Assembly: GCA_030829985.1 (NCBI GenBank)
Contig: JAURNW010000002.1
Span: 1-41,272, forward strand
Reading direction: 5' to 3'
DNA length: 41,272 nt
Source: Gammaproteobacteria bacterium
Lineage (GTDB): Bacteria > Pseudomonadota > Gammaproteobacteria > Eutrophobiales > Eutrophobiaceae
Below the pieces are notes generated by a model. It saw only the letters and a program-made list of their open reading frames with translations. It had not been told where the DNA came from and made no database searches. Positions within the stretch are counted from its first letter, which is position 1, and the number at the start of each line of letters is the position of its first letter. Of this stretch, positions 15,232 through 35,816 are shown in pieces. The position numbers and the translations under genes were made by a program.

Positions 15232-15744
15232 TTAAGCGTGTGCTGCGAATGGATGTTCAGCTGAACCTTTCTTGCTAACTACTTCTGCAGCTTTAGGCTC
15301 ACGAGCAACAGCACGCTTAACAGATAGCTTGGTTGCTTCATAGTTATAGTCCTGAATTTTCGCATCATCATCTGCTAACCAATGAATAAATACGCCTACA
15401 GAAATAAAGATATCATCCGCTTCGTCAGCAGGAATGGTGCCGTCTTCAACACAATCCATAACAGCCATAGCAACACCACGTTGTGCAGGACCAAACATTT
15501 GAACTGCTTGTTTTGAACCTTTGATGGTAACTTTGTTAAACAGAATGGTATTAGGTTTACAAGCCAGGTTAGGCGCTACAACTGCCAACAAGGTGCTGAA
15601 ACCGTCTTTGTTATTGGTTAATGCATTTGCGAAAGCTGATTCAGCTGCGCTGCCACGTGGACCCATCATTAAGTCAATGTGTGCAACTTCATTGCCATCA
15701 CCTACTAATGCTTCACCAATTAATACTCTATCAATGACTGCCAT
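15232..15744 (-). CDS. fae: formaldehyde-activating enzyme
   Basis: Fae condenses formaldehyde with H4MPT to methylene-H4MPT and is normally very abundant in methylotrophs. The 170-residue product carries the family signature [16 protein letters not shown] with the catalytic His22, [18 protein letters not shown], and the C-terminal YNYEATK and HPFAAHA. I chose the ATG at 15744 because GGAGGAGAT lies at ideal spacing and the product then has normal Fae length. An in-frame ATG at 15795 would add 17 residues ([11 protein letters not shown]...) and also has weak SD-like bases. It is the last gene of the minus cluster but is separated from the CitG-like gene by about 160 bp, so it may have its own promoter. 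Confidence 0.97.
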
Positions 15745-15833
15745 TTTTACATCTCCTCCAGTTAAAAAACCAAATAGTTTTCCGAATATTGACATATTAC
15801 ATCCATCCTATTTGTTTATATTTAAAATTAAAC

Positions 15834-20799: not shown

Positions 20800-21828
20800 T
20801 TATAAGTTCGTTACTTTTAAATTTTCGTTTTGTACTGACAGATTAATGTCCCTTGATTCTATAAGTGCTTTTTCATTACGTGCCTTACTCATTACAAATC
20901 GCAATCTTGATTCAGATTGCCATTGTTCACGTGTTTTTTTCAATGCCTGAAAAGCTAATGTCTCGTCCGGAAAAAAAGCAAAACCCGTAGGCCCCCAGGA
21001 GCTTTGACCAACACCAGTAGCACCGGCATTTTTCAAATTATCAAGAATGGGCTTCATAAAAGGTGAAGTGTAACGACCACCTTGGGCATCCGCAAAATAA
21101 TCACCAACAATGTTTTGTATTTGTGTTATTGCTTGACCAAAGCGATCACAATCTTTTTCCATGATTGCGGGTAAAACCTGCATTAAAGTTAATCGGGACA
21201 GCACTCCCGACATATTCTCATCCATTGGCGGCAACGTATTAAATGCGCGGCGTTCGGGAACACCATTAATGCCTTCAGTCTGATCATCAAATATCAGAAC
21301 AATACGCCAATTTTCCGGAAACGCCATATGACTTATTACGGGCGGGACTTCGGTATTATCCCCGCGACCACCATCTACAATAAAACCGCCACGCATAAAA
21401 GTTCCGATACCAATTCCTGATCTGGCCCCTCGGTGTAATATTGCAGCAAGTCGACCGGGATTTTGCTCGGATAAATCGTATAATTTCGCAATAGCTGTCG
21501 CAACGGCTAGTGATAATTGTGTGCCAGAACCCAAACCTGAGTGCTCGGGAATAGCCGACTTGATCGACATTTTAACGCCACCACTGATACCAAAATGTGA
21601 CAATATTTGCTCTGCATAATCCTCAGCGCGTTTTGACGAAAGTCCAGTAACGTTTATATCATCAGCATATTCAGTAGTAAGTACAGTTTCGACATCCGTA
21701 ATGGAGAGCCCCAGACTACCAAATTTTCTTTCTAATCCACCATGTAGGTCCAGAAACCCCAGGTGTAACCTTGCTGACGCACGGACACTGATCTGCTTTG
21801 ATTTGCTTTTTAATTGATTATTATTCAT
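20800..21828 (-). CDS. beta-ribofuranosylaminobenzene 5'-phosphate synthase
   Basis: This enzyme condenses pABA with phosphoribosyl diphosphate and releases CO2, the first committed step of H4MPT synthesis. The protein has the GHMP-kinase-like fold: RLHLGFLDLHG at the N-terminus, IPEHSGLGSGTQLSLAVA as the phosphate loop, GARSGIGIGTFMRGGFIVDGG, and a C-terminal GQSSWGPTGFAF. I chose the ATG at 21828 (MNNNQLK..., 342 residues). The longer frame from 22044 would add 72 residues with no family similarity and would run through the divergent promoter and into the gene at 21995. It heads the minus operon with mtdB, the ATP-grasp gene, mch, the RimK-like gene and the CitG-like gene. Confidence 0.9.
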   Translation of the reverse strand: MNNNQLKSKSKQISVRASARLHLGFLDLHGGLERKFGSLGLSITDVETVLTTEYADDINVTGLSSKRAEDYAEQILSHFGISGGVKMSIKSAIPEHSGLGSGTQLSLAVATAIAKLYDLSEQNPGRLAAILHRGARSGIGIGTFMRGGFIVDGGRGDNTEVPPVISHMAFPENWRIVLIFDDQTEGINGVPERRAFNTLPPMDENMSGVLSRLTLMQVLPAIMEKDCDRFGQAITQIQNIVGDYFADAQGGRYTSPFMKPILDNLKNAGATGVGQSSWGPTGFAFFPDETLAFQALKKTREQWQSESRLRFVMSKARNEKALIESRDINLSVQNENLKVTNL

Positions 21829-21935
21829 TTTCTTAATGGAGCATTGATTGAAACATGTAAAACACCTTATTGTACTGTATGTTACAGCTCTGAGATAGCA
21901 TTCTGCATAAGATATGGATTTAATCACATATCTGT

Positions 21936-21965
21936 TTGTCCTTGGTATTAAGACAGGATTATAAT
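21936..21965 (+). promoter_or_regulatory. predicted promoter of the fwd/fhc-1 operon
   Basis: TTGTCC (21936-21941) and a perfect TATAAT (21960-21965) are separated by 18 bp. They lie 29 bp before the GTG start of fwdD, with AGGAG between. The divergent beta-RFAP synthase gene starts 108 bp to the left, so this region controls both operons. Confidence 0.6.
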
Positions 21966-21994
21966 CGGTATCGAACATCATCAGGAGAAGACAA

Positions 21995-22342
21995 GTGTCA
22001 GAAAAAATGATCCTCATTCCAGGCCGTTCCAGTAAACAAGGCACTTCTCTAAATCAAGGCAAACTGAAGGATGAATACAAACAAGTCACCACCACCCTTG
22101 AGATGAACAGCGACGACATGAAAAAAAGAGGGTTGATAGATGGCGATGAAGTCCGTTTAAGCAATGAAACGGGTGAAACCATTGTACGTTGTCTAGGTGT
22201 AAAACCCGAAGATCTGCCGCCAGGCATGCTGTTTATTCCTTATGGACCACCCTCAAGTCAGCTCATGGCAAGTGATACGGCTGGTTGTGGCATGCCCTTA
22301 TCTAAACATATGGAAGTTGAAATTGAGAAAATTTCAACTTAA
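21995..22342 (+). CDS. fwdD: formylmethanofuran dehydrogenase subunit D-like (molybdopterin dinucleotide-binding)
   Basis: This 115-residue protein matches the FwdD/FmdD subunit of archaeal formylmethanofuran dehydrogenase. It has NSDDMKKRGLIDGDEVRLSNETG, as in the double-psi barrel that binds molybdopterin dinucleotide, then PPGMLFIPYGPPSSQL and a C-terminal DTAGCGMP, close to the archaeal GP.AN...T.GTGMP pattern. The GTG start at 21995 is supported by AGGAG at good spacing. It is directly followed (39 bp) by an FwdB-like catalytic subunit. The hydrolytic bacterial Fhc complex has no such subunit, so its presence suggests that pterin and metal are really bound here. Confidence 0.85.
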   Translation: MSEKMILIPGRSSKQGTSLNQGKLKDEYKQVTTTLEMNSDDMKKRGLIDGDEVRLSNETGETIVRCLGVKPEDLPPGMLFIPYGPPSSQLMASDTAGCGMPLSKHMEVEIEKIST

Positions 22343-22381
22343 CCGCATACTACCCATTCTGGCTTATGCTGAGGTGCTTCT

Positions 22382-23740
22382 ATGAGTGAAAATATCAAGA
22401 TCGTAGAGAACGCAACATGCACATTCTGTGGCTGTGTCTGTGATGACATGATCCTTCATGTCGACATGGATGAAAAACGTATTACTAAAGCAAAAAATGC
22501 TTGTGTATTGGGCCGAGCCTGGTTCGCAGAACACACTATTGAAGACACCCCGGCGGCCATGATCGATGGTAAAGCAGTCTCAATCGAAGAAGCCATTGAA
22601 GAAGCGGCGCAAACACTGTCAAATGCAAAATTCCCTATTACTTATGGTCTAAGTGACACCACCTGTGAAGCACAACGCCAGGCCGTCGCCATCAGCGATA
22701 TGATTAAAGGCAATATTGATACCACGACCTCTGTTTGTCATGGACCGTCAGGTCTTGCCTTTCAAGGCGTTGGAGAGAGCACCAGCACCTTGGGTGAGGT
22801 TAAAAACCGGGCAGATCTCGTAATCTATTGGGGTGGCAACCCTGCTGAGTCTCATCCTCGACACTTTGGACGTTATGCTGTTACACCAAAAGGCATGTTC
22901 ACCCCGGGCGGTAAGAAAGACAGGACTATTGTATTAGTAGATGTACGCAAGACAAAAAGCTCACCCGTTGCAGACATATTGATCAGACCTAAACCAGGTA
23001 AAGACTTTGAAGTTTTATGGGCATTGCGCGCCTTGGTTAAAGGTAAAAAATTATCGCCAGATATTGAAGCAAGAACGGGGGTTCCTTTAGAAACTCTGCA
23101 GGATCTTACTGAACGCATGAAAAATTGCCGTTTTGGAGTACTATTTTTTGGCATGGGGTTAACCATGACGCGTGGTCGTCATTTTAATTCCGGCGCCCTG
23201 CTCGCTTTGGCTACTGATTTAAACGAATTCACACATTTTGTCGCTAAACCCGTGCGCGGTCACGGCAATGTCACTGGCGCTGACAATGTCGTCTCCTGGC
23301 AGACAGGGTACCCATTTGGTGTTAATTTCAGTCGTGGTTATCCACGTTTTAATCCAGGCGAATTCACAACTGTTGACACTCTGTCCAATGCTGACGCTGA
23401 CGCGGCATTGATTATTGCCAGTGACCCGGCGTCAAACTTTCCCAAGAAGGCAATTGCACATTTAAAAAGTATCCCGGCGGTAGTACTGGATACTAAATGC
23501 ACTGAAACCAGTAAAGATGCTCATGTCGCATTTCGCACATCAACTTATGGCATCAACACTTCCGGGACGGTGTATAGAATGGATGATGTACCAATAACCT
23601 TAAGACCCGCATTTGAATCACCCTTTCCGGATGATTACACTATTTTGACGGGCATAAGAAAACGAGTGAATGAATTAATGCTGGCGAAACACTATGCATC
23701 AGGAGCCAGCGGTCAAGCTAAAGTGGCAGCGCCTATCTAA
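22382..23740 (+). CDS. fwdB: formylmethanofuran dehydrogenase subunit B-like, with an intact metal site
   Basis: This 452-residue FwdB/FhcB family protein binds [4Fe-4S] through Cys13, Cys16, Cys20 and Cys41 (CTFCGCVC...NAC). It keeps Cys119-His120 in TSVCHGPSG, the Mo/W ligand and proton-relay pair of archaeal FwdB and formate dehydrogenases. It also keeps Arg292 in PVRGHGNVTG, which parallels PLRGQNNVQG in the formate dehydrogenase of this same window. In known methylotrophs the FhcB protein has lost redox function and serves only as a scaffold, so this copy is unusual. It is encoded with an FwdD-like subunit and upstream of fhcA, fhcD, fhcC, ferredoxin and ferredoxin reductase. I infer oxidation of the bound formate to CO2 (or the reverse). 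The fhcA start is 209 bp further on. Confidence 0.9.
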   Translation: MSENIKIVENATCTFCGCVCDDMILHVDMDEKRITKAKNACVLGRAWFAEHTIEDTPAAMIDGKAVSIEEAIEEAAQTLSNAKFPITYGLSDTTCEAQRQAVAISDMIKGNIDTTTSVCHGPSGLAFQGVGESTSTLGEVKNRADLVIYWGGNPAESHPRHFGRYAVTPKGMFTPGGKKDRTIVLVDVRKTKSSPVADILIRPKPGKDFEVLWALRALVKGKKLSPDIEARTGVPLETLQDLTERMKNCRFGVLFFGMGLTMTRGRHFNSGALLALATDLNEFTHFVAKPVRGHGNVTGADNVVSWQTGYPFGVNFSRGYPRFNPGEFTTVDTLSNADADAALIIASDPASNFPKKAIAHLKSIPAVVLDTKCTETSKDAHVAFRTSTYGINTSGTVYRMDDVPITLRPAFESPFPDDYTILTGIRKRVNELMLAKHYASGASGQAKVAAPI

Positions 23741-23887
23741 AAGATCGCGAAGAGACTTTAACTTTAGCAATGCATAAACTATAGTATTTTGCAGTATAAG
23801 TTTTTATTAGAAATAATTGAGACCATTTACGAGAAAATAAATAGTAATCAAAAAGAAATTCATTAGTGTTTTTTTGATTAAAGATTA

Positions 23888-23899
23888 GCAGTTAACTGC
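23888..23899. promoter_or_regulatory. 12-bp palindrome before fhcA copy 1
   Basis: GCAGTTAACTGC is a perfect palindrome 50 bp before fhcA-1, in the only sizeable gap (23741-23949, about 209 bp, AT-rich, no ORF) inside this operon. It may be a regulator site or part of an internal promoter. I cannot name a binding protein. Confidence 0.35.
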
Positions 23900-23949
23900 C
23901 GTCGTAAAATTACTCATTAAAATATAACAACAATATTTAGGGGTATGTG

Positions 23950-25596
23950 ATGTCAGCAGCTATGCGCATCGTAAACGGCAAAGTGTACGACCCTGCCAAT
24001 AATATCGATGGTGAAATAAAAGATATTTGCATCAAGGACGGCAAGATTGTCGATTCGGTTGATGATGATGCAATAGTTATCAATGCTCAAGGGATGGTTA
24101 TTATGCCCGGCGGCGTAGATATCCACTGTCACATTGCAGGTCCCAAGGTAAACGCCGCCAGAAAACTTCAACCGGAAGACCATCGACATGATGTCCATCC
24201 GGGCACCCCTTTCACTCGTTCTGGAACGGGTGGCACAGTCCCATCAACTTTTGCAACCGGCTACCGCTATGCCACTTTAGGCTATACCACTGCTATGGAA
24301 GCCGCTGTTACACCGATAGGTGCAAGACATACGCTTGAAGAATTTCATGATACACCTGTAATCGACAAAGGGTTTTATGTCTTACTGGGTGAAAACATTT
24401 TTCTACAAAACCTGCTGCGTGAAAAACGCATGGAAGAATTTGATCAAGCCGTTGCCTGGTGGGTCAATGCCACTAAAGCATACACAGTAAAACTGGTCAA
24501 TCCTGGCGGTGATGAACCCTGGAAAGGCAAAAAAAATTCAAATGTGTCTGATATCGATGAAAAAACCGATGAAGGACTTAGCCCGCGAGAAATTATTGAA
24601 GCCTTTATAGTCTCTGTAAACAAACAAGGGTTTCCACATCCGCCGCATATTCATTGCAATAATCTTGGCCATAGTGGCAACTATAAAACGACTCTGGAAA
24701 CAATGAAAACAGCTGGCGATATGCGCGCTCATATAGCGCATATTCAGTTTCATAGTTACGGTGGTGAACTGGGTAAAAATCCAGTTTCCAAAGCAGCTGA
24801 AATAGTTGAGTACGTTGACAACCATCCTAATATCACCTGCGATGTTGGTCAGGTTATGTTTGGTAAATCGACTATCATGACTGCCGATGCACCTTTAGCT
24901 TATGTATTGAAAGGTCATACCAAGGGCAAGTGGGTCAATGCCGATACCGAATGTGAAAGTGGTTGCGGCATTGTGCCTTTCCAATACCAGGAGCATGTAT
25001 ATATGCATACCCTGCAGTGGGCTATTGGTCTTGAAATATTCTTACTCTCGAAAGATCCCTGGCGCGTTATCTTATCGACCGACCATCCCAACGGCGGTTC
25101 ATTTATGAATTATCCTAAATTGATTAAATTATTGATGGATAAATCATTTCGTCACGAAGAAATGAAACGCGTTAATCAAAAGGCGTTGGCTAATTGTTCA
25201 TTACGTGATCTGGAACGTGAATTTACGTTAAACGAAATCGCTATTATAACCCGTGCTGGACCTGCTCGTGCTCTAGGCTTGAGTAACAAAGGTCATTTAG
25301 GTAATGGTGCAGATGCCGACATTACTATTTACGATGAGATGGAAGATAAGGAGATGATGTTCAACGCACCACGTTATGTCATCAAATCTGGCCATGCCAT
25401 TATTGATAACCACGAATTCAAAACTGATTTTATTGGCAAGTTATTACATATCAGTCCCGAATATGACAAGAAGATTGAAGAGGTTGTACAGCCTTTCTTT
25501 GAAAGTTATTACTCAATCGAATTTTCAAACTATGCGGTAGATGATAGCTATCTTCATGATCATGAAATCATTCAAACCGGGAATGCCAAAGCATGA
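23950..25596 (+). CDS. fhcA: formyltransferase/hydrolase or formylmethanofuran dehydrogenase subunit A (copy 1)
   Basis: This 548-residue amidohydrolase-fold subunit hydrolyses N-formyl-methylofuran to formate. It keeps the dinuclear metal motif DIHCHIAG (His59, His61), a Lys181 in YTVKLVNPGG that corresponds to the carboxylated lysine of archaeal FwdA, histidines in PHIHCNNLGHSGN and HIQFHSYGG, and the catalytic Asp in STDHPNGG. I start at the ATG at 23950, which has AGGGG at good spacing, rather than at the GTG just before it. In the archaeal enzyme a tunnel passes formate between the A and B subunits; with the intact B subunit encoded upstream, the same could happen here. The stop overlaps the fhcD start by four bases. 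Confidence 0.93.
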   Translation: MSAAMRIVNGKVYDPANNIDGEIKDICIKDGKIVDSVDDDAIVINAQGMVIMPGGVDIHCHIAGPKVNAARKLQPEDHRHDVHPGTPFTRSGTGGTVPSTFATGYRYATLGYTTAMEAAVTPIGARHTLEEFHDTPVIDKGFYVLLGENIFLQNLLREKRMEEFDQAVAWWVNATKAYTVKLVNPGGDEPWKGKKNSNVSDIDEKTDEGLSPREIIEAFIVSVNKQGFPHPPHIHCNNLGHSGNYKTTLETMKTAGDMRAHIAHIQFHSYGGELGKNPVSKAAEIVEYVDNHPNITCDVGQVMFGKSTIMTADAPLAYVLKGHTKGKWVNADTECESGCGIVPFQYQEHVYMHTLQWAIGLEIFLLSKDPWRVILSTDHPNGGSFMNYPKLIKLLMDKSFRHEEMKRVNQKALANCSLRDLEREFTLNEIAIITRAGPARALGLSNKGHLGNGADADITIYDEMEDKEMMFNAPRYVIKSGHAIIDNHEFKTDFIGKLLHISPEYDKKIEEVVQPFFESYYSIEFSNYAVDDSYLHDHEIIQTGNAKA

Positions 25597-26504
25597 AGAT
25601 TAAATCTACAGAAATTGTCGATACCTTTGCAGAAGCGTTCAAGATGTTTGGCAGTCGCATTATCATTACGGCAGCAACAAAAGAATGGGCAATGGCAGCC
25701 GCACAATCCATTACCGGTTTTGCAACCTCGGTCATCGGTTGTAAATGCGAAGCCGGTATAGAGAAATTAATTGCTGCCGATGATTCCCCGGATTTAAGGC
25801 CGGGCGTCAGTATTTTATTGTTTGCCATGGATGCAGAAAGTCTTGGAAAAAGACTGATGGAACGCATAGGACAATGTGTTATGACTTGTCCAAGTACTGC
25901 TTGCTACAACGGTTTGGATGAAGGCTCACCGGTTACGGTTGGCGGTCAATTGCGTTATTTTGGGGATGGCTATCAGATCAGCAAAGTACTTGGAAAAAAC
26001 AAGCTCTGGCGCATTCCTGTAATGGATGGTGAATTCCTGATTGATGATAAATTCAATGTGCAGGAATCAGTGGGTGGCGGCAACTTATTAATCCTTGGCA
26101 AAAACCAAAAAGCGACATTAAGAGCAGCCAGTGCCGCGACCAAAGCTATACGCAAGCTACCCGATGTTATCTTGCCCTTCCCTAACGGTGTTGTTCGTAG
26201 TGGCAGTAAAGTTGGTTCCCGCTACAAATCATTGATCGCGTCTACTAACCATTTATATTGCCCTACGTTGCGTGGCGCGATCGAATACTCGGAACTGGAT
26301 GATGGAATCAATAGCGTACTTGAAATTGTAATCGATGGCTTATCACTGGCAGCAGTTGAAGCAGCCATGCGTGTTGGAATTACTGCAGCCGCCAAACCCG
26401 GCATAAAGAAAATATCAGCCGGTAATTATGGTGGTGGTCTGGGTCAACACCATATCCATTTACATCAACTCCTTGCCTCGAAGGATTGGAGTGGAGAAGT
26501 TTAA
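25593..26504 (+). CDS. fhcD: formylmethanofuran:H4MPT formyltransferase (copy 1)
   Basis: This 303-residue Ftr/FhcD family protein transfers the formyl group between H4MPT and methylofuran. It has the typical DTFAEAFKMFGSRIIITA start, RPGVSILLFAM, RIGQCVMTCPSTACYNGL, FGDGYQISK, NGVVRSGSKVGSRYKSL and the C-terminal ISAGNYGGGLGQHHIHL. Length is that of the family (about 300). It overlaps fhcA by four bases and is 3 bp before fhcC, so the operon is tightly coupled. In archaea Ftr is usually a separate enzyme; in bacterial Fhc it is part of the complex. Confidence 0.94.
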   Translation: MKIKSTEIVDTFAEAFKMFGSRIIITAATKEWAMAAAQSITGFATSVIGCKCEAGIEKLIAADDSPDLRPGVSILLFAMDAESLGKRLMERIGQCVMTCPSTACYNGLDEGSPVTVGGQLRYFGDGYQISKVLGKNKLWRIPVMDGEFLIDDKFNVQESVGGGNLLILGKNQKATLRAASAATKAIRKLPDVILPFPNGVVRSGSKVGSRYKSLIASTNHLYCPTLRGAIEYSELDDGINSVLEIVIDGLSLAAVEAAMRVGITAAAKPGIKKISAGNYGGGLGQHHIHLHQLLASKDWSGEV

Positions 26505-26507
26505 GCA

Positions 26508-27320
26508 ATGGCTCTTAAATTAAATTTACATACACAACCTGATGTTCCTTTGGAAGCTGACTGTATCAGTCCGGATAAAATGCAATCGCTAAGTAAGCAC
26601 GAAATTGAACAACTGATAATTTTCCATGGCAACCGTCAGGTTCCGTTAAAAGACTTTTTTGAATGTAGCGGTGAATTTGATGGAGAAATTAATATTGATG
26701 GTGACTTGTCCAGGATAAAACATATTGGTGCTGCCATGTCCTTTGGCAAGATAACAATAAGCGGCAGTGTTGGTATCCATACCGGCGCAGCGATGACTGG
26801 CGGTGAAATCATCGTTGAAGGAGATGCTTCCGATTGGTTAGGTCCCGAGATGTATGGCGGTAAAATCACTGTTAAAGGTAATGCTGGTCACATGGTCGGT
26901 AGCGGTTATCGCGGCAGCACCATTGGTATGCAGGGTGGTGAAATTATTGTGCATGGTAATGTCAAAAATGAAACCGGCCATGTCATGCGTAGAGGACTGA
27001 TCGTGGTTGGCGGTAATTCCGGTGATTTTACCGGAGTAAATATGGTCGCCGGGACCATTATAGTATTAGGAGAAATGGGTATACGTACTGGCGCAGGAAT
27101 GAAGCGCGGCTCTATAGTTTGCCAAACAAAATCAGAGCTATTACCCACCTTTACCCATAGTTGCGATTATCAACCTTTGTTTCTTCAACATTATTTCAAA
27201 TATTTAAAATCAATTGGTCTTGCTATCAATGACTCATTGTTTAACGGCTCATTTGAACGCTGGTGCGGAGATTCAGTTGAATTAAATCGAGGAGAAATCC
27301 TGTTATATGCAGGAAAGTAA
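26508..27320 (+). CDS. fhcC: formyltransferase/hydrolase or formylmethanofuran dehydrogenase subunit C (copy 1)
   Basis: This 270-residue FwdC/FhcC protein is a right-handed beta-helix related to the C-terminal domain of glutamate synthase. It has repeated GG.I.V.G..G...G..M turns, visible from about residue 75 to 200 (for example MTGGEIIVEGDA, MYGGKITVKGNAG, MRRGLIVVGGNSG). It acts as a structural and methylofuran-holding subunit next to FhcA. A 57-bp gap with a strong Shine-Dalgarno sequence leads to the ferredoxin gene, so the operon probably continues. Confidence 0.92.
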   Translation: MALKLNLHTQPDVPLEADCISPDKMQSLSKHEIEQLIIFHGNRQVPLKDFFECSGEFDGEINIDGDLSRIKHIGAAMSFGKITISGSVGIHTGAAMTGGEIIVEGDASDWLGPEMYGGKITVKGNAGHMVGSGYRGSTIGMQGGEIIVHGNVKNETGHVMRRGLIVVGGNSGDFTGVNMVAGTIIVLGEMGIRTGAGMKRGSIVCQTKSELLPTFTHSCDYQPLFLQHYFKYLKSIGLAINDSLFNGSFERWCGDSVELNRGEILLYAGK

Positions 27321-27377
27321 AACTCAACATCATTTTAATTACTAGAGGAAATGCCTTTAACAGGCTAGGAGGAAACG

Positions 27378-27683
27378 ATGACAACAATCGTAACAGATAA
27401 TTGTAAAGACTGCCGTTTTACAGATTGTGTAACCGTCTGCCCGGTCGCTTGCTTTCATTATGATGATGATATGCTCTACATCGATCCAGACGTTTGTATT
27501 GATTGCAGTGCATGTATACCTGAATGTCCGGTTCAGGCCATTTATGAAGGCGATGACATTCCTGAAGACAAAGAAAACTGGATCGAGATCAACGCTGAAA
27601 GAGCACCCAATCTGCCTGTTTGTGAAGAGCAAATGGATCCCCTTCCCGGTGCAGAAGAAAGAAAAGAAGCTCTCGGGTTTTAA
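27378..27683 (+). CDS. fdxA: 7Fe ferredoxin
   Basis: This 101-residue ferredoxin of the FdxA/FdI type has Cys9, Cys17 and Cys50 placed for a [3Fe-4S] cluster, and Cys21, Cys40, Cys43 and Cys46 for a [4Fe-4S] cluster. Extra cysteines are at 12 and 25. The C-terminal half is the acidic tail usual for this family (NAERAPNLP...DPLPGAEE). AGGAGG lies at ideal distance before the ATG at 27378, so strong translation is expected. It sits between fhcC-1 and a ferredoxin reductase gene (7 bp), which makes it the obvious electron acceptor for the FwdB-like subunit. The archaeal complex uses polyferredoxins for this; none is present here. Confidence 0.93.
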   Translation: MTTIVTDNCKDCRFTDCVTVCPVACFHYDDDMLYIDPDVCIDCSACIPECPVQAIYEGDDIPEDKENWIEINAERAPNLPVCEEQMDPLPGAEERKEALGF

Positions 27684-27690
27684 TTAAGCC

Positions 27691-29073
27691 ATGACGAACC
27701 TGGGCACAGACCAAAACCCTTTACTAGTAGCCATTGTGGGTAGTGGCCCCAGTGGTTTTTATGCGGCTGAAGCCTTGATCAAATCTGAAGTTAAAGTAAA
27801 GGTAGATGTTCTGGAACGCTTGCCTTCTCCCTTCGGACTTGTTCGTAGTGGTGTAGCGCCTGATCATCAGAAGTTAAAACAGGCGATCAAACTGTATGAA
27901 AAAATTGCAGAATCACCTGATTTTAACCTGATTGCCAATGTGACGGTGGGCACTGATATCTCTGTTAAAGAATTACGTGACGCTTATCATGCTATTATTT
28001 TCACCTGTGGCGCTGAGTCTGATCGTAAACTAGGTGTTCCCGGGGAAGATTTAAAAGGCAGTTATACCGCAACAGAATTTGTTGGTTGGTATAATGGACA
28101 CCCTGATTATCGAGACCGTGAATTTGATCTGTCTCACGATATTGCGGTAATAATCGGACAAGGGAATGTTGCCGCTGATGTCAGCAGGATTTTGTCGAAA
28201 ACGATTGATGAACTAAAACATACTGATATTGCCCAGCATGCACTGGACGCATTGGCCGAAAGCAAAATTAAAGAAATACACGTTATCGGAAGACGCGGAC
28301 CCGCTCAGGCTAAATTCACACCAAAAGAGTTACGTGAATTTGGCGAACTCTCGGATTGCGAACCAGTCGTCCTTGAACAGGATTTGTTGCTTAACCCGGA
28401 AAGCGAAAAAGAGTTAGAAGAAAAAAGTAATATCTCCAGCAAGAAAATCTACGATTTATTTTGCGAGTTTTCTAAACGGGAACCAGACACAGCTAAATCA
28501 AAAAAATGTTTTTTCAGTTTTCTTATGAGCCCGAAAGAACTCATAGGCGATACAACATTGGAGAGAATAATTTTTGAAAAAAATAAATTGTCAGGCGAGT
28601 CGTTTAAACAGTCCGCAAGGGGCACTGGTGAAACAATAGAACTCGAAACTGGAATTTTATTTCGTAGTATCGGTTACCGAGGGATTCCTGTAGAAGGAGT
28701 ACCTTTTAATGAAAGCTGGGGAACTATCCCTAACGACAAAGGCAGGGTTACTGATTCCGAGAATAATGTGGTCGATCAACTTTATACTGCTGGTTGGATT
28801 AAGCGTGGTCCTAGTGGCATAATTGGCACAAACCGCGCCTGTAGTGTGGAAACAGTTGAATGTTTAATTCAAGATCTTGAAAAACTGAATAGCAGTACAA
28901 AAAAGTCAGGTGCGAAAGCGATTTATTCCAAGCTGGATATTAAATCTATTCGGCATATTAATTTTGAGGATTGGAAAAAAGTTGACACGAGTGAAATTGA
29001 ACTTGGAGAAGTCAAAGATAAACCACGTGAAAAGTACACGAGTATTCATGAGATGTTATCGGTAATTAAATAA
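27691..29073 (+). CDS. ferredoxin-NADP reductase, adrenodoxin-reductase type
   Basis: This 460-residue flavoprotein of the FprA/adrenodoxin reductase family has the FAD loop VGSGPSGFYAAE at 15-26, LPSPFGLVRSGVAPDH, an NADP-binding loop IGQGNVAADVSRIL, the Arg-rich IGRRGPAQAKFT that selects NADP(H), and the C-terminal AGWIKRGPSGIIGTN. It moves electrons between reduced ferredoxin and NADP. It starts 7 bp after the ferredoxin gene and ends the first operon; the gap of 126 bp to the second fhc set contains a GTGTTTTAAAAACAC palindrome at 29142-29156. The context suggests NADPH formation from electrons released by the redox-type Fwd complex, or ferredoxin reduction for the reverse direction. Confidence 0.92.
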   Translation: MTNLGTDQNPLLVAIVGSGPSGFYAAEALIKSEVKVKVDVLERLPSPFGLVRSGVAPDHQKLKQAIKLYEKIAESPDFNLIANVTVGTDISVKELRDAYHAIIFTCGAESDRKLGVPGEDLKGSYTATEFVGWYNGHPDYRDREFDLSHDIAVIIGQGNVAADVSRILSKTIDELKHTDIAQHALDALAESKIKEIHVIGRRGPAQAKFTPKELREFGELSDCEPVVLEQDLLLNPESEKELEEKSNISSKKIYDLFCEFSKREPDTAKSKKCFFSFLMSPKELIGDTTLERIIFEKNKLSGESFKQSARGTGETIELETGILFRSIGYRGIPVEGVPFNESWGTIPNDKGRVTDSENNVVDQLYTAGWIKRGPSGIIGTNRACSVETVECLIQDLEKLNSSTKKSGAKAIYSKLDIKSIRHINFEDWKKVDTSEIELGEVKDKPREKYTSIHEMLSVIK

Positions 29074-29199: not shown

Positions 29200-30498
29200 T
29201 TGATTATAAAGGAAATATTTCTGGAAAAAGTATCAACAGCGAGCGCGTCAATAACCAGAGATGTTACTTGCCCTTTTTGTGGGATTCTATGCGACGACCT
29301 GGTAATAAAAAATCAACAGGAGTCACTAAAAATACTTGAAAATGGCTGCCACAAAGCAGTCTCATCTTTTGAATCTATTTTGGCGGTAAATGAACCCAAA
29401 ATTAATGGTAAACCTGTCGCGCTTACTGACGCTATCAATGAAATGTGTGCGATCCTTAAAAAATCACATGCCCCCCTGATCGCGGGCCTTGGTAGTGACG
29501 TTGCGGGTATACGAGAAATAATGAATCTGGCAGATAAAACCGGTGCAGTGATTGACCATATGCACGGCAATGCCCTGATCCGAAACTCACTTGTTTTACA
29601 GGACCTTGGCTGGATTACAACGACGATGACAGAAATCAGAAATCGTGCTGATTTGATTATATTTGCCGGGACAGATGCAACAGGCTTCCCTCGATTTTTT
29701 GAACGGGCTATCTGGAATAAAAAGTCTATGTTCAAGTTGAAGAATGAACAACGTGAGATTGTTTATATAGGCGAAAAACTAAATACAAAATCAGGTGTAA
29801 ACCCAAACGGCAAAAAACCTTCCGTGCTCACCTGCAAAACGGATCAAATCGGTGAGGTCATTTCAAGCTTGCACGCACTTGTTACTGGCGCAACACTTGA
29901 TGTGAATGAAGTCGCTGGGATTAAAATCAAGACACTACAGGAACTCGGTAAGAAGATGATGGCTGCCAAATATGGCGTAATTATCTGGTCACCTGCTGAT
30001 CTGGATATCCCTCATGCTGAACTGACTATTCAAAACTTTTGTGAAATTGTTAAATATTTGACCCGAACAACGCGATTTGCAGGATTTTCACTGGGTGGTA
30101 ATGATGGCGCTATAACGGCAAATAATGTCTGTGCCTGGCAGAGTGGTTATCCGTTAAGAGTTAACTACAACAAAGGTTATCCTGATTACGATGCTCAGCG
30201 TTATTCAACTCAAAATGTTCTCAAAAAGAAAGAGGTCGACTCTCTACTCTGGATATCCAGTTTCAATTCGAAGGTGAACCCACCGCGAGCATCAGTACCT
30301 ACAATCGTAATGGCAACGCCAGATACAAAATTAAATTTCACACCTGATGTATTCATCCCTGTAGCAACTCCTGGAGTTGATCATGCAGGTCAATTATTTC
30401 GTACTGATAGCGTTATTTCCTTACCATTAAAACAAGTAAGGCAATCGCCATATACCAGCGTTAAGTCGATCCTCAAACAAGCTATCGAAAGGATGTAA
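29200..30498 (+). CDS. fhcB: formyltransferase/hydrolase complex subunit B (copy 2, redox-dead type)
   Basis: This 432-residue FhcB paralogue of the protein encoded at 22382-23740 still has CPFCGILC (Cys24, Cys27, Cys31) and Cys50 for an iron-sulfur cluster. At the metal position it reads DHMHGNAL, so the ligand Cys is replaced by Met121, while His122 remains. The active-site Arg region reads SLGGNDGAI instead of PVRGHGNVTG, so the Arg is lost too. No FwdD-like gene accompanies it. This fits the known hydrolytic role, in which B is only a scaffold. The start is uncertain: no ATG is available. TTG at 29200 gives the longest frame, but AAAGGA lies better placed for CTG at 29221. Confidence 0.88.
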   Translation: MIIKEIFLEKVSTASASITRDVTCPFCGILCDDLVIKNQQESLKILENGCHKAVSSFESILAVNEPKINGKPVALTDAINEMCAILKKSHAPLIAGLGSDVAGIREIMNLADKTGAVIDHMHGNALIRNSLVLQDLGWITTTMTEIRNRADLIIFAGTDATGFPRFFERAIWNKKSMFKLKNEQREIVYIGEKLNTKSGVNPNGKKPSVLTCKTDQIGEVISSLHALVTGATLDVNEVAGIKIKTLQELGKKMMAAKYGVIIWSPADLDIPHAELTIQNFCEIVKYLTRTTRFAGFSLGGNDGAITANNVCAWQSGYPLRVNYNKGYPDYDAQRYSTQNVLKKKEVDSLLWISSFNSKVNPPRASVPTIVMATPDTKLNFTPDVFIPVATPGVDHAGQLFRTDSVISLPLKQVRQSPYTSVKSILKQAIERM

Positions 30499-30508
30499 AC
30501 AAGATTCT

Positions 30509-32164
30509 ATGTACATAAAATTAACTAACGGCATCGTCTATGATCCTGTGCATGGCATCAATGGTGAACATAGGGATATCTATATCAATGATGGCCACAT
30601 AACACGTAAACCGTCCAGCAATGCAAAGATAGACAAAATTTATGATCTGAAAGGCAAGGTCATAATGGCAGGTGCTATTGATATTCACACACATATTGGT
30701 GGCGGAAAGGTCAATATAGCACGCATGATGCTGCCAGAAGACCATGCTACAGACCTGGTCGAGAAGACCGAACTTACGCGTTCCGGCTGTGGTTATGCAG
30801 CACCATCAACTTTAACCGCTGGTTATCGTTATGCTGAAATGGGTTATACCGCCTGCTTTGAACCCGCCATGCTGCCAGCGAATGCTCGACAAGCTCATAT
30901 GGAAATGGCTGATACACCGATGGTAGACAAAGGTGCCTATGCCATGCTCGGTAGCGACGATTTCTTCTTACGCATGCTTGCATCTAAAAAAGACCAGGCT
31001 GCTATAAGTGATTACGTTGGTTGGACAATCAATGCTACACAGGCAATGGGTATAAAGGTTGTTAATCCCGGTGGCATCAGCGCTTTTAAATTTAATCAAC
31101 GCAAACTGGACCTGGATGAATTAAATCAATACTACGGCGTATCGCCACGGGATATTATTAAATCTTTGGCTAGAGCAGTAACGGAATTAGGCATACCTCA
31201 TCCCTTACATCTACATGGATGCAATCTTGGCGTGCCTGGCAATCTCAACACAACGCTGGAAACAATTCGTGCGGTTGAAGGGATGCGTATGCATCTTACT
31301 CATATTCAGTTTCATAGTTACGGTACTGAAGGTGACAAAAAGTTTTCTTCGGGTGCTGCCGAAATTGCAGAAGCGGTCAATAAGAATCCGAATATATCGA
31401 TTGATGTTGGGCAAATACTCTTTGGCCAAACAGTAACAGCATCGGGTGATTCAATGATGCAGTATGCAGGACATTGGCATGCCCATCCCAAAAAATGGGT
31501 CATTATGGACATTGAATGTGATGCTGGTTGCGGCGTAGTTCCTTTTAAATATCGTGATAAGAACTTTGTAAATGCTTTGCAATGGGCTATCGGACTTGAA
31601 ATATTTCTATTGATAGATGACCCATGGCGTGTCTTTTTAACAACGGATCATCCGAACGGCGCCCCGTTTACAAGTTATCCGCATCTGATCCGTTTATTAA
31701 TGGATAAAAGTTTTAGGAATGACATGCTATCAACTATTAATAAAGAAGCTGCTGCTGCGAGTACCCTTGGTAGTATTGATAGAGAGTACTCCTTATATGA
31801 AATAGCGATAATGACCCGGGCTGCTCCGGCTAAAAGTCTGGGTTTAAAAAATAGAGGTCATCTTGGTTCCGGGGCAGTTGCAGACATTACGGTCTATAGC
31901 AATAACAAAGATAAAGAAAAAATGTTTAGTAAACCGGATTATGTATTCAAGAATGGTGAACTCATTGTGCGTAACGGAAAAATCATTAAAGTTGTCAATG
32001 GTGCGACTCATACGTTACGACCGGAATATGATAACAGTATAGAGAAATCGCTAAAGCGTTACTTTGATGATTATCAAACGGTTAGTCTTGGTAATTTTAA
32101 AATTGATGATGATGAAATTATTGAACATGGTAATGGAAAAATCATCATCCAACCCTGTATGTAA
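30509..32164 (+). CDS. fhcA: formyltransferase/hydrolase complex subunit A (copy 2)
   Basis: This 551-residue amidohydrolase-fold subunit has DIHTHIGG (His60, His62), Lys183 in MGIKVVNPGG, PLHLHGCNLGVPGN, HIQFHSYGT and the catalytic Asp in TTDHPNGA. All metal and catalytic residues seen in copy 1 are thus kept. It hydrolyses formyl-methylofuran to formate. The gene follows fhcB-2 by 10 bp. With formate dehydrogenase genes downstream, formate produced here would be oxidised to CO2 with NADH formation. Confidence 0.93.
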   Translation: MYIKLTNGIVYDPVHGINGEHRDIYINDGHITRKPSSNAKIDKIYDLKGKVIMAGAIDIHTHIGGGKVNIARMMLPEDHATDLVEKTELTRSGCGYAAPSTLTAGYRYAEMGYTACFEPAMLPANARQAHMEMADTPMVDKGAYAMLGSDDFFLRMLASKKDQAAISDYVGWTINATQAMGIKVVNPGGISAFKFNQRKLDLDELNQYYGVSPRDIIKSLARAVTELGIPHPLHLHGCNLGVPGNLNTTLETIRAVEGMRMHLTHIQFHSYGTEGDKKFSSGAAEIAEAVNKNPNISIDVGQILFGQTVTASGDSMMQYAGHWHAHPKKWVIMDIECDAGCGVVPFKYRDKNFVNALQWAIGLEIFLLIDDPWRVFLTTDHPNGAPFTSYPHLIRLLMDKSFRNDMLSTINKEAAAASTLGSIDREYSLYEIAIMTRAAPAKSLGLKNRGHLGSGAVADITVYSNNKDKEKMFSKPDYVFKNGELIVRNGKIIKVVNGATHTLRPEYDNSIEKSLKRYFDDYQTVSLGNFKIDDDEIIEHGNGKIIIQPCM

Positions 32165-32173
32165 ATATTAATC

Positions 32174-33070
32174 ATGAAAATAAATGGCGTACAGATAGAC
32201 GATACATTTGCAGAAGCTTTCCCGATGAAAGCGACTCGCATCATAATTACAGCTATGACACTTAAGTGGGCATATCGGGCTGCAAATGCAATTCGTGGAT
32301 TTGCATCTTCAGTCATAGCATGTGGCATTGAGGCTGATATCGAGCGGGAACTCAAACCATCAGAAACACCGGATGGTCGTCCAGGTATTTCGGTGATGAT
32401 CTTTGCAATGTCTACAAAAGATCTGGAAAAACATGTTGCAACACGCGTTGGCCAATCGGTTATGACAACGGCAACCACAGCATGTTATTCAGGGCTGGAA
32501 AGCGAACAAACCGTTTCTATAGGAAAAAGCCTGCGCTTCTTTGGTGATGGTTATCAAATATCAAAAGTTGTAAATGGCAGACGTTTCTGGCGAATTCCGG
32601 TTATGCACGGTGAATTTATCTGTGAGGAGTCTACCGGCGTAACAAAGGCAATTGGCGGGGGTAACTTTCTGGTACTGGCTAAAACAGCCCGACATGGACT
32701 TGCGGCTTGTGAAAAAGCTGTCGATGAAATTCAAAAGTTACCCGGTGTAATTACCGCTTTTCCCGGAGGTGTTGTCGGTTCAGGCTCGAAGGTCGGCTCT
32801 AAATACAAATTTCTCACTGCGTCTACAAATGAGGCGTACTGCCCGACATTGAAAGGTCAGGTAAAATCAGAACTTACAGACGAGATTGGTTCAGTACTCG
32901 AAATAGTAATTGATGGCCTTGATGAAGATTCTATAAATCAGGCAATGCGGGTGGGTATTAAAGCCGCCTGCTCTTTTGGTTTAGCAAAAGGTATTTGTCG
33001 GATTAGCGCTGGGAATTATGGTGGCAATCTGGGGCCTCATTTGTTCCACCTAAGGAAGTTACTTAAATGA
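32174..33070 (+). CDS. fhcD: formylmethanofuran:H4MPT formyltransferase (copy 2)
   Basis: This 298-residue Ftr/FhcD protein is parallel to copy 1: DTFAEAFPMKATRIIITA, RPGISVMIFAMS, RVGQSVMTTATTACYSGL, FGDGYQISK, GGVVGSGSKVGSKYKFL and ISAGNYGGNLGPHLFHL. It starts 9 bp after fhcA-2 and overlaps fhcC-2 by four bases. Surface segments differ clearly from copy 1, as expected if each Ftr is paired with its own complex. Confidence 0.93.
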   Translation: MKINGVQIDDTFAEAFPMKATRIIITAMTLKWAYRAANAIRGFASSVIACGIEADIERELKPSETPDGRPGISVMIFAMSTKDLEKHVATRVGQSVMTTATTACYSGLESEQTVSIGKSLRFFGDGYQISKVVNGRRFWRIPVMHGEFICEESTGVTKAIGGGNFLVLAKTARHGLAACEKAVDEIQKLPGVITAFPGGVVGSGSKVGSKYKFLTASTNEAYCPTLKGQVKSELTDEIGSVLEIVIDGLDEDSINQAMRVGIKAACSFGLAKGICRISAGNYGGNLGPHLFHLRKLLK

Positions 33071-33891
33071 GCGCACTAACTTTTACTTTAAAAACTCCCC
33101 CTAAATTCACGTTGAATGTTGCTCCGCTGATTCCGGAAAATCTAGAAGGAAAAACGCTGGCAAAAATAAAAACTATCAAGCTCATATATGGTAATGAAAC
33201 GGTAAAAGTGGATGCTTTATTCAGTATGAAAGGTACCGATTCTAGCCATATTTGTCTTGATAAAAGCACTGACAAACTCATTAATGTTGGGCAAAAGATG
33301 ACCCGGGGTTCTATTTTCATCAAAGGTGATGTTGGCGATTTCCTTGGCCAGGGGATGAAAAATGGAAAAATTATTGTTGATGGAAACACCGGGGCATGGG
33401 CCGGAAATGCCATGTCCGGCGGCCGTATTGATATACATGGAAATGCCTTAGATTATGTTGGTGCAGGTGCTCCGGGTGATACCTTTGGCATGACGAATGG
33501 TCTGATTAATATAAAAGGTAATGCGGGTGATAGAGTCGGTGATCGTATGCGCCGTGGCATAATCATTATTCAGGGCAAATCCGGAAATTATTGTGGCAGC
33601 CGTATACATGCAGGCACAATAATTGTACTGGACAAAGTCGGCAAACTACCTGGTGAGGGGATGCGGCGAGGTACAATCATTCTGGCTAAAAAACCTGCCC
33701 ATCTGTCCGCAACGTTTAAAAGTTGTGGGAATTTAAAAATGCAGTTTTTACGTCTCCTATTTACTCAGCTTGCAAATATTGATGATGAACTTGCGTTATT
33801 CAGTAAATATGGGCCTGAGGCACATCGCTTTTCAGGCGATCTGGCAAGAAATGGCAAGGGAGAGATACTTATCTTGCAACATTATAAATAA
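33067..33891 (+). CDS. fhcC: formyltransferase/hydrolase complex subunit C (copy 2)
   Basis: This 274-residue FhcC beta-helix protein has the repeated pattern MTRGSIFIKGDVG, MKNGKIIVDGNTG, MSGGRIDIHGNA, MRRGIIIIQGKSG. The first 60 residues are poorly conserved against copy 1. It is the last gene of the second set, overlapping fhcD-2 by four bases. A 263-bp gap with a 10-bp inverted repeat follows before the formate dehydrogenase genes. Confidence 0.92.
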   Translation: MSALTFTLKTPPKFTLNVAPLIPENLEGKTLAKIKTIKLIYGNETVKVDALFSMKGTDSSHICLDKSTDKLINVGQKMTRGSIFIKGDVGDFLGQGMKNGKIIVDGNTGAWAGNAMSGGRIDIHGNALDYVGAGAPGDTFGMTNGLINIKGNAGDRVGDRMRRGIIIIQGKSGNYCGSRIHAGTIIVLDKVGKLPGEGMRRGTIILAKKPAHLSATFKSCGNLKMQFLRLLFTQLANIDDELALFSKYGPEAHRFSGDLARNGKGEILILQHYK

Positions 33892-34154: not shown

Positions 34155-35816
34155 ATGAAACGTACTCGAGGAAAAAAAGGTCGCGTCCAAGGCCGCACTA
34201 CACCCCATAAATCGTTAGCAGAAATCAGACAAATTCTTGGTGATTCGCCAAGAACGCGTGACATGCTAATAGAGAATCTTCACAAGATTCAAGATCATTA
34301 TCACCATATATCAAACCGACATATTCTTGCACTTTCTATTGATATGAGCCTGCCCATGGCTGAAGTCTATGAAACAGCAACGTTTTATCACCACTTTGAT
34401 GTACTCGCTGAAAATGAAGTAGCCCCTCCATCCAGAACAGTAAGAGTTTGTGATTCACTCACCTGCGAAATGTTTGGTGCAAAAAATTTAATCAATCAAC
34501 TTGAATCTGAAGATATTGATGATGTTCGAATTCAGCCAGTACCCTGTGTAGGACGCTGCAGCCATGCCCCAGTCGCCGTTGTTGGAACCAACCCGATAGA
34601 ATCTGCAGACTTGACTAAAATTAAAACAGCTATTCAAAATAATGAGTTCGAAGATACTGAACCAGACTGCATAAACTATAGTGAATATAGAAAGAATGGT
34701 GGCTATCAAACTCTAATAGATTGTGTAGAAGCTAAACATAATCGCGAAGACATTATTTCAATATTAGAAGATTCTAATTTACGTGGCCTGGGTGGAGCGG
34801 GATTTCCGACTGGACGTAAATGGCGAATTTTGAGTGAACAATCAAAACCCAAAATGATTGCCATCAATATCGATGAAGGTGAACCAGGAACATTCAAAGA
34901 CCGGTTTTATCTTGAACAGGATCCACATCGGTTTATTGAAGGCACTTTAATTGCTCATTGGGCTATTGAAGCTGACAAGATCTACATTTATTTAAGAGAT
35001 GAATACGCGGGCTGCCGTAAAGCATTAGAAAAAGAACTCGCCTCACTAAAGCAGAATCCGCCATGTGCATTACCTGAGATTCACCTAAGACGTGGTGCTG
35101 GAGCCTATATATGTGGCGAAGAATCAGCAATGATTGAATCTATTGAAGGTAAACGAGGCATGCCACGATTACGTCCGCCTTATGTTGCGCAAGTGGGTCT
35201 TTTTGGACGCCCTACCCTTGAACAAAATATGGAAAGTATGCATTGGGTAAGAGATATTATTAACAATGGTGCAGAGTGGTTTTCCAAGAATGGTCGACAT
35301 GACCGCAAAGGGCTGCGATCTTTTTCTGTAAGTGGTCGTGTACAAAAACCCGGAGTACATCTTGCACCGGCAGGGATCACAATTCAGGAATTAATTGATG
35401 AGTATTGTGGTGGCATGCTTGATGGACATGAATTCTATGGCTATTTCCCTGGTGGTGCATCTGGAGGTATTTTGCCCGCATCATTAGGCAATATCCCGCT
35501 TGATTTTGATACATTGCAACCTTACGGTTGTTTCATTGGCTCTGCAGCAATTGTCGTATTATCAAACAAAGACAGCGCAAAACAAATGGCACTCAATGCC
35601 ATGCGCTTTTTTGAAGATGAATCATGCGGTCAATGCACTCCCTGCCGAGTAGGAACTGCCAAAGCAGTTAAACTAATGGAAAAAGAAGACTGGGATCAAC
35701 CTCTACTGGAAGAATTGTCCACTGCCATGGTCGATGCTTCAATTTGTGGTTTAGGTCAAGCTGCGCCAAATCCTTTGCGTTGCGCAATAAAATATTTTCC
35801 TGAGGAATTCAAATAA
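34155..35816 (+). CDS. fdhB: NAD-dependent formate dehydrogenase beta subunit (NuoE-NuoF fusion)
   Basis: This 553-residue diaphorase subunit takes electrons from the alpha subunit and reduces NAD. The N-terminal NuoE-like domain binds [2Fe-2S] through Cys99, Cys104, Cys131 and Cys135 (CDSLTC, CVGRC). The NuoF-like part has RGLGGAGFPTGRKW for FMN, INIDEGEPGTFKDR and GAGAYICGEESA for NADH, and ESCGQCTPCRVG for [4Fe-4S]. The fused form is that of the two-subunit FDH1 of Methylobacterium; other soluble enzymes have the two parts as separate FdsG and FdsB proteins. The first 15 residues are very basic. The stop shares one base with the alpha-subunit start. Confidence 0.94.
   Translation: MKRTRGKKGRVQGRTTPHKSLAEIRQILGDSPRTRDMLIENLHKIQDHYHHISNRHILALSIDMSLPMAEVYETATFYHHFDVLAENEVAPPSRTVRVCDSLTCEMFGAKNLINQLESEDIDDVRIQPVPCVGRCSHAPVAVVGTNPIESADLTKIKTAIQNNEFEDTEPDCINYSEYRKNGGYQTLIDCVEAKHNREDIISILEDSNLRGLGGAGFPTGRKWRILSEQSKPKMIAINIDEGEPGTFKDRFYLEQDPHRFIEGTLIAHWAIEADKIYIYLRDEYAGCRKALEKELASLKQNPPCALPEIHLRRGAGAYICGEESAMIESIEGKRGMPRLRPPYVAQVGLFGRPTLEQNMESMHWVRDIINNGAEWFSKNGRHDRKGLRSFSVSGRVQKPGVHLAPAGITIQELIDEYCGGMLDGHEFYGYFPGGASGGILPASLGNIPLDFDTLQPYGCFIGSAAIVVLSNKDSAKQMALNAMRFFEDESCGQCTPCRVGTAKAVKLMEKEDWDQPLLEELSTAMVDASICGLGQAAPNPLRCAIKYFPEEFK

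Follow-up and report, generated by a model that had tools for sequence, protein, structure and literature searches.

A probable redox-competent, NADP-linked formyl-methylofuran dehydrogenase operon adjoining a redox-dead Fhc operon in a gammaproteobacterium

Two formyl-carrier complexes are encoded head to tail on the + strand of contig JAURNW010000002.1 (assembly GCA_030829985.1, Gammaproteobacteria bacterium, family Eutrophobiaceae), positions 1 to 41,272 of which form the window analysed here; operon 1 occupies 21995-29073 and operon 2 occupies 29200-33891. We propose that operon 1 probably encodes a bacterial redox-competent formyl-methylofuran dehydrogenase, built like the bacterial formyltransferase/hydrolase complex (Fhc) but with the formate-oxidising half kept, and that it would yield CO2 and NADPH. 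Its seven genes run in the order D-B-A-FhcD-C, 7Fe ferredoxin and FprA-type NADPH reductase. An earlier note, made from the letters alone, had read them as an operon from fwdD to a ferredoxin-NADP reductase (FNR), and it had place and strand right; profile or structure-chain matches are now available for all seven.

21995..22342, +: D1, FwdD-like molybdopterin dinucleotide binding subunit, 115 aa (PF01568, 51.2 bits)
22382..23740, +: B1, FwdB-like catalytic subunit, 452 aa, [4Fe-4S] and Mo/W ligand residues intact (TIGR03129, 495.2 bits, cut-off 327.8)
22418..22504, +: stretch of B1 with the [4Fe-4S] cysteines C13, C16, C20 and C41 (sequence positions)
22736..22741, +: B1 codons for Cys119-His120, predicted Mo/W ligand and its neighbour (alignment to 5T5I_B C118-H119)
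23255..23257, +: B1 codon for Arg292 (alignment to 5T5I_B R288)
23947..25596, +: A1, FwdA/FhcA amidohydrolase (TIGR03121, 693.3 bits)
25593..26504, +: FhcD/Ftr formyltransferase of operon 1 (TIGR03119, 411.8 bits)
26508..27320, +: C1, FwdC/FhcC GXGXG subunit (TIGR03122, 269.2 bits)
27378..27683, +: 7Fe ferredoxin, Azotobacter FdI/FdxA type (1frk_A, 105 bits; FdxA_Protbact, 111.5, below cut-off 135)
27691..29073, +: NADPH:ferredoxin reductase, FprA/adrenodoxin reductase type (M. tuberculosis FprA 1lqt_A, 349 bits, residues 9-457)

The B1 sequence has the features that mark the archaeal Fwd/Fmd enzymes, namely four iron-sulfur cysteines and a Cys-His pair and an Arg at the Mo/W site. The earlier note had placed these at residues 13, 16, 20 and 41, Cys119-His120 and Arg292, and the positions are correct, with the last three in register with C118, H119 and R288 of Methanothermobacter FwdB (5T5I_B). 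The match between B1 and 5T5I_B reaches 361 bits across 427 residues, which excludes chance likeness. All seven residues are invariant in the window protein and 20 relatives, themselves picked from the active type (sequences with Cys-His and Arg), and the iron-sulfur positions read CCCC in 91 of 92 active-type sequences, the remaining one being gapped there. An AlphaFold 2 model of B1 made from a 62-row alignment (predicted local distance difference test, pLDDT, 92.8) superposes on FwdB (5t61_H) over nearly its whole length, at Z 52.3 and 1.8 A over 424 residues; the corresponding values for inert FhcB are Z 34.7 and 2.6 A over 346 residues, and those for formate dehydrogenases are Z ~24-29. 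At the level of the fold, structure prediction, a check that the note had proposed, did not refute its reading. A previous model from a 21-row alignment (pLDDT 71, active-site loops below 50) was set aside.

Of 362 relatives of B1, the best 80 supplied the loci compared, a choice that favours close kin and the active type; with the window itself and with 37 regions from other genomes they gave 140 distinct bacterial B sequences, to which five archaeal chains were added. Cys-His and Arg are present in 87 bacterial and all 5 archaeal rows and are not all kept in 53 bacterial rows, counted after omission of one 260-aa fragment (L029) and six duplicates, and with three open reading frames (ORFs) of 560 aa or more removed by a length filter (L106, active-type; L031 and L081, dead). 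For the trees, rooted on the five archaeal rows only, the 145 rows were thinned to 84 and the active-site columns were removed; a later tree of 79 rows was made without five long or gappy dead rows. B1 and 28 others of the 31 active-type bacterial representatives form one clade, supported at 94 by the Shimodaira-Hasegawa-like approximate likelihood ratio test (SH-aLRT) in the 84-row tree and at 99/95 (ultrafast bootstrap/SH-aLRT) in the 79-row tree, the other side of which (45 rows, support 100/100) holds the dead rows together with L107 and L108, two residue-keeping rows from the Planctomycetota sample. Because this clade stands apart in trees made without the active-site columns, B1 lies outside redox-dead FhcB, and the phylogeny that the note had asked for therefore goes its way. 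The tree requires three changes of state between the two types, and the starred branches force three.

B1 also changes more slowly than B2, the corresponding subunit of operon 2. When the window is compared with nine near relatives, identity is 83-93% for B1 and 61-79% for B2 of the same genomes; nonsynonymous divergence (dN) is 0.052-0.112 for B1 versus 0.130-0.308 for B2 in seven of nine genome pairs, the B2 values for L008 and L013 (2.1 and 2.9) being excluded as apparent slicing artefacts. We do not give dN/dS, since synonymous sites are near saturation (proportion of synonymous differences 0.53-0.85). The slower change fits a catalytic B1 and a more loosely constrained scaffold B2.

A separate pterin-binding FwdD-like subunit is encoded directly upstream of B1, as the earlier note had it. 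Apart from the PF01568 domain, its best matches in the PDB are the FwdD chains 2ki8_A, 9sfi_S and 5t5i_D, and nine residues (R11, Q15, G16, K23, G60, G77, G84, T95 and K104) are identical in 86 aligned D sequences, 3 archaeal ones included. Of the 87 active-type bacterial B genes, 81 have FwdD next to them, as against none of 53 dead ones (81/88 and 0/55 after the three length-filtered rows are added back). The active-type genes without it are L078 and L103 (contig edge), L054 (none in the locus), L107 and L108 on the dead side of the tree, and L013, where ORFs that by eye resemble transposase pieces occupy the D position.

A further reading is that B1-D1 oxidises free formate with NADP as a formate dehydrogenase in a side role and that A-FhcD-C is a separate hydrolase. 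B1-D1 does resemble a formate dehydrogenase split in two, and in L080, L082 and L105 D and B form pairs near which no A, FhcD or C was seen. We nevertheless regard this reading as unlikely: 80/87 active-type B genes have an A gene at a distance of 4 kb or less (the seven exceptions are in loci of the Chloroflexota or the Planctomycetota sample), archaeal counterparts channel formate internally (PMC11656701), and B1, encoded apart from D, scores just 78.1 bits against the formate dehydrogenase alpha model TIGR01591, with its cut-off of 666.25. In two Anaerolineales-labelled loci (L050 and L056) about 3-5 kb of other ORFs separate B from A.

The electron acceptor proposed for operon 1 is suggested by its last two genes. 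The ferredoxin has all nine cysteines of Azotobacter FdI, eight of which (C9, C12, C17, C21, C40, C43, C46 and C50) are present in 57/57 such genes of the loci and the ninth, C25, in 51/57; NCBIfam matches to the reductase are partial and below cut-off, and its full-length match is to FprA instead. Genes for both proteins are found within 8 kb of 51/87 active-type B genes, many loci being cut by contig ends. The pair is downstream as a rule in Gammaproteobacteria and upstream in L060 and L072 (Betaproteobacteria), L062 (Gemmatimonadota), L035 and L047, and its presence on either side of the operon indicates that the link has outlived rearrangement. A different arrangement is seen in five Methylothermaceae/Methylococcaceae loci (L068, L069, L071, L076 and L077), where FwdD is the N-terminus of a diflavin fusion of 728-757 residues with flavodoxin, FAD-binding and NAD-binding domains following, in 5/5 distinct loci where D is divergent from B. 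No ferredoxin-FNR pair was seen in these five loci, and neither the pair nor a D fusion was seen in L054, another methanotroph-labelled locus of this group. The fusions, all on the - strand and divergent from the B gene, are as follows.

L069, 4215-6419, -: FwdD-diflavin fusion
L071, 6524-8797, -: FwdD-diflavin fusion
L076, 1559-3751, -: FwdD-diflavin fusion
L077, 2749-4932, -: FwdD-diflavin fusion
L068, 1-1335, -: FwdD-diflavin fusion, ending inside the FAD domain at the contig end

Among PDB chains the fusion comes nearest to CysJ, the flavoprotein of sulfite reductase (448 bits, L069). The fused protein is matched at E <=1e-60 by 48/369 Gammaproteobacteria genomes, and among the matches listed from these 369 genomes none reaches the D part (earliest start, residue 117). 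We also note a 1007-aa frame (G820:C1:2067247-2068881) with a CysJ-like part that shares 57% identity with the reductase of the fusions. That two unlike modules of NADP(H) type are joined to one kind of complex is the best evidence for electron exchange between the B-D site and NADP(H). The ferredoxin/NADP route put forward in the earlier note is supported by the linkage and, independently, by the fusions of other lineages.

The Planctomycetota sample supplies a different line of evidence on the B site. An in-frame TGA stands exactly at the Cys119 position (SL-U-HGPTE) of the B genes of L103 and L104 (genomes G613 and G582), which read through only if it is decoded.

L103, 4334, -: TGA codon at the ligand position of B
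L104, 11256, -: TGA codon at the ligand position of B

Both genomes have a tRNA for selenocysteine (Sec; 67.5 bits, threshold 47; tca confirmed by ARAGORN). A hairpin 3' of the TGA (z ~ -1.6; rank 12/417 in L103 and 20/417 in L104 among in-gene windows) gives weak support for a selenocysteine insertion sequence, and the argument for Sec therefore rests on the tRNA. These two B proteins are probably bacterial FwdB selenoproteins. Sec is the other known ligand in the FwdB lineage (PMC7331816), and an exchange of Cys for Sec at this codon is best explained by a metal-binding residue. Elsewhere in the same sample, L109-L113 have Gly or Ser in place of the Cys and keep the His and Arg, and in L114-L118 the ligand motif is deleted.

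Operon 2 is a complete second Fhc (B2-A2-FhcD2-C2) and is followed by an NAD-type formate dehydrogenase; both had been overlooked in the earlier note, and they serve as a built-in control for operon 1.

29200..30498, +: B2, redox-dead FhcB (TIGR03129, 321.7 bits, slightly under cut-off 327.8)
30509..32164, +: A2 (TIGR03121, 793.1 bits; closest PDB chain FhcA 6s6y_A, 438 bits)
32174..33070, +: FhcD2 (TIGR03119, 433.6 bits)
33067..33891, +: C2 (TIGR03122, 255.6 bits)
34155..38611, +: beta and alpha subunits of an NAD-type formate dehydrogenase (TIGR01591 for alpha, 755.7 bits, cut-off 666.25; NuoF-like match for beta, 378.4 bits, under cut-off)

At the three ligand positions B2 reads Ala-Leu and Gly; it retains the four N-terminal iron-sulfur cysteines and matches 5T5I_B with 128 bits. 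The textbook picture of FhcB without Mo/W ligands and of a complex without D describes operon 2 and does not describe operon 1, where ligands and D are present. The earlier note had taken bacterial Fhc complexes to be described as purely hydrolytic, without pterin or D subunit; as a premise of novelty this is somewhat too strong, as bacterial FwdB proteins were counted in 2023 (PMC10100899) and an actinobacterial operon was described in 2020 (PMC7325909).

It could be argued that operon 1 is itself a redox-inert scaffold, the residues of B1 and D1 being kept by descent and the complex only hydrolysing formyl-methylofuran to formate as Fhc does. That ligand residues can outlast the D subunit is seen in L107 and L108, which have Cys-His-Arg without D on the dead side of the tree, and the hydrolase residues of A1 and A2 are the same. 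Such a scaffold seems to us quite improbable, however, given that B1 and its adjoining D are both conserved, that two relatives have TGA/selenocysteine at the ligand position, that D is fused to a diflavin reductase elsewhere, and that a separate dead Fhc lies next door for hydrolysis.

By a tally of B scores, 29/58 genomes (the window's own included) have a B above 490 bits, accompanied in 27 of them by one of 200-400 bits; the other two, G025 and G027 (97 and 98% complete), have the high-scoring type only. G027 has the same B sequence as L059, a metagenome-assembled genome (MAG) with a Legionellales label. L059 and three other loci so labelled (L014, L016 and L079) are arranged as D-B-A-F-C-ferredoxin-FNR-formate dehydrogenase, with no dead Fhc in the locus. 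Because these loci, G025 and G027 do without the dead type, the redox version can apparently stand alone. The closest named relatives are MAGs labelled Gammaproteobacteria, some of them Thiotrichaceae (UBA973 and UBA7357). In a 398-genome sample of the window's phylum eight genomes have a B at E <=1e-40, and the window's own is the only one above cut-off; in the phylum to which G452 (L080, labelled Planctomycetota) belongs, 19 of 246 genomes have a B, 11 of them above cut-off and five of these 11 without the Cys.

The surroundings of operon 1 give it a tetrahydromethanopterin (H4MPT) pathway context, with the following features on the - strand.

15232-15795, -: fae (above model cut-off)
17676-18650, -: mch (above model cut-off)
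ORF 20800-22044, -: beta-RFAP synthase family gene (TIGR00144, 161 bits, cut-off 113.5)
13376-14356, -: weak MfnD match (131.8 of 400 bits)

Also present in the genome are a pyrroloquinoline quinone (PQQ) alcohol dehydrogenase (TIGR03075, 742.9 bits), whose substrate we take to be methanol, and mobA (243.5 bits) and fdhD (250.8 bits), so that an enzyme with the bis-molybdopterin guanine dinucleotide cofactor could be made in this host. A family search of the genome for ammonia monooxygenase/PmoA gave no match, and control genomes were equally silent. Farther upstream in the window are a MopB-family oxidoreductase at 696-2816 (-), between DmsA-like and formate dehydrogenase models and below the cut-off of every model listed, and at 3254-5223 an ORF pair that presumably encodes an AAA+ ATPase and a von Willebrand-type partner. 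Promoter-like sites (25 versus 31.4 in shuffles) and terminator-like sites (14 versus 10.7) allow no operon boundary to be derived.

The direction in which the complex would run can be considered from its energetics and its context. The potential of NADPH is about -0.32 V. The midpoint potential of the formyl-methanofuran (formyl-MFR) reaction has been estimated at -0.53 V (PMC11656701), and with a value near this oxidation with NADP+ would be downhill and CO2 reduction with NADPH uphill. A reductive role, in which NADPH acting through ferredoxin fixes CO2 as formyl-methylofuran for formyl-H4MPT and C1 assimilation, has in its favour that a redox site and FhcD are both present and that the archaeal relatives run reductively in hydrogenotrophic methanogens (PMC11656701). 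We give it little credence, since the formyl-MFR midpoint lies far below that of NADPH, the operon has no electron-bifurcating or hydrogenase gene, and the context is oxidative, with fae and mch adjoining and a PQQ alcohol dehydrogenase in the genome. We therefore favour CO2 formation as the direction of the complex.

In the dehydrogenase proposed here, FhcD, which is encoded with A, B and C as in Fhc, would transfer the formyl group from formyl-H4MPT to methylofuran, and A1 would hydrolyse formyl-methylofuran to formate at its binuclear site, the residues of which (H57, H59, K178, H229, H231, H271 and D385, with K64; 5t5i_A numbering) are all present. Formate would then move inside the complex, through a putative tunnel, to a Mo/W-bis-pterin held by B1 and D1, where the metal would be ligated by Cys119, with His120 and Arg292 nearby, and formate oxidised to CO2; the [4Fe-4S] cluster of B1 would hand the electrons on to the 7Fe ferredoxin, from which the FprA-type reductase would deliver them to NADP+. 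The dead Fhc and the NAD-type formate dehydrogenase would draw NADH from the same formyl-H4MPT, and the tandem locus may thus be a branch point at which the cell chooses NADPH or NADH. More broadly, and with confidence only somewhat better than even, we suggest that this is an NADP-wired enzyme of aerobic methylotrophs that skips free formate, that the wiring arose in at least two forms (7Fe ferredoxin with FprA, and a FwdD-FMN-FAD-NADP polypeptide), and that the textbook hydrolytic Fhc is its decayed sister, with stages of the decay (Cys lost, His and Arg kept) still alive in Planctomycetota.

Several observations weigh against the assignment of operon 1 as a dehydrogenase. The hydrolase residues and Lys64 are identical in A1 and A2. 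D1 reaches only 75.5 of 175 bits on the NCBIfam model for W-specific FwdD, far under cut-off, and the counts of D genes are not independent trials, since the contrast tracks essentially one deep split in the tree. L107 and L108 retain Cys-His and Arg with no D and on the dead side of the tree, and in the 19 kb of L106 (G552) the ligand motifs are present but no D was found; ligand residues alone are therefore no proof of activity. Ferredoxin and FNR genes also lie within 8 kb of 21/53 dead B genes, which we attribute to the frequent tandem arrangement of the operons: near the 26 dead B genes of loci without an active B, ferredoxin is found 0 times and FNR twice (L095 and L111). The pair was not seen in Chloroflexota loci or in L065 and L067, and no FwdF/FwdG-type polyferredoxin is among the genes of the operon, the part of the genome searched for it. 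The host, finally, has at least one other formate dehydrogenase. The Lys64 gate was also tried as a marker of type and dropped, with Lys in 73/74 A proteins beside an active B and 35/36 beside a dead one.

Among known systems, the archaeal Fwd/Fmd complexes (5T5I and 8RJA) share with operon 1 homologues of FwdA, B, C and D, the iron-sulfur, Cys-His, Arg and hydrolase residues, and the B fold (Z 52). They differ in that operon 1 includes the FhcD formyltransferase, has a 7Fe ferredoxin and FprA reductase and no polyferredoxin or F420/Hdr partner gene, and presumably acts on methylofuran rather than methanofuran. Bacterial FhcABCD (6S6Y) shares the A, C and FhcD subunits and the H4MPT pathway context, but its FhcB, described as lacking a Mo/W cofactor (PMC10100899), is a 361-residue chain that aligns from B1 residue 58 on, without the iron-sulfur part, whereas operon 1 has the Mo/W-site residues, the iron-sulfur domain and a D subunit; B2 too keeps the iron-sulfur cysteines.

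The closest published arrangement is that of the Hakuba Actinobacteria (fwdDBA-ftr-fwdC, PMC7325909), which has the same D-B-A-ftr-C order, an N-terminal iron-sulfur domain and a catalytic Cys118, although its FwdB is printed, alongside that Cys118, as being without tungstopterin motifs. Its context is the Wood-Ljungdahl pathway, H4MPT biosynthesis genes were not observed, and the available portions of that paper mention neither a ferredoxin-FprA pair nor a D fusion. In Ca. Ethanoperedens an oxidative formyl-MFR route is likewise joined to a soluble carrier by an added reductase, but the carrier is F420 and not NADP, and the reductase is an archaeal subunit and not ferredoxin-FprA or a D fusion (PMC11493965, PMC11656701). 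Bacterial FwdB was noted as absent in 2020 (Wells, PMC7331816), and 149 bacterial representatives, ascribed to transfer from archaea, were reported in 2023 (Wells, PMC10100899); these need not all be redox-competent, since the set included members without the ligand Cys. Bacterial FwdB and the actinobacterial operon are thus already in print, and in the accessible portions of the open-licence PubMed Central literature we found no account of an NADP-linked methylotroph version, a D-diflavin fusion or a bacterial Sec form; within the same limits the feature is undescribed for Methylothermaceae B42 (PMC4688376), Gulf of Mexico methanotrophs (PMC9874027), Idas symbionts (PMC10199937) and the Methylobacter bioanode (PMC13322032).

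If the assignment is correct, the H4MPT pathway of methylotrophs, for which formate is the accepted product, would gain through operon 1 a step that yields NADPH and releases CO2 directly. Archaeal-type chemistry between CO2 and formyl carriers would become accessible, with NADP as acceptor, in the bacterial lineages concerned, some of which bear the labels of methanotroph families, and forms intermediate between archaeal Fwd and inert Fhc would be at hand. A ready-made connection of a Mo/W formate site to NADP(H) would be offered by the FwdD-diflavin fusion.

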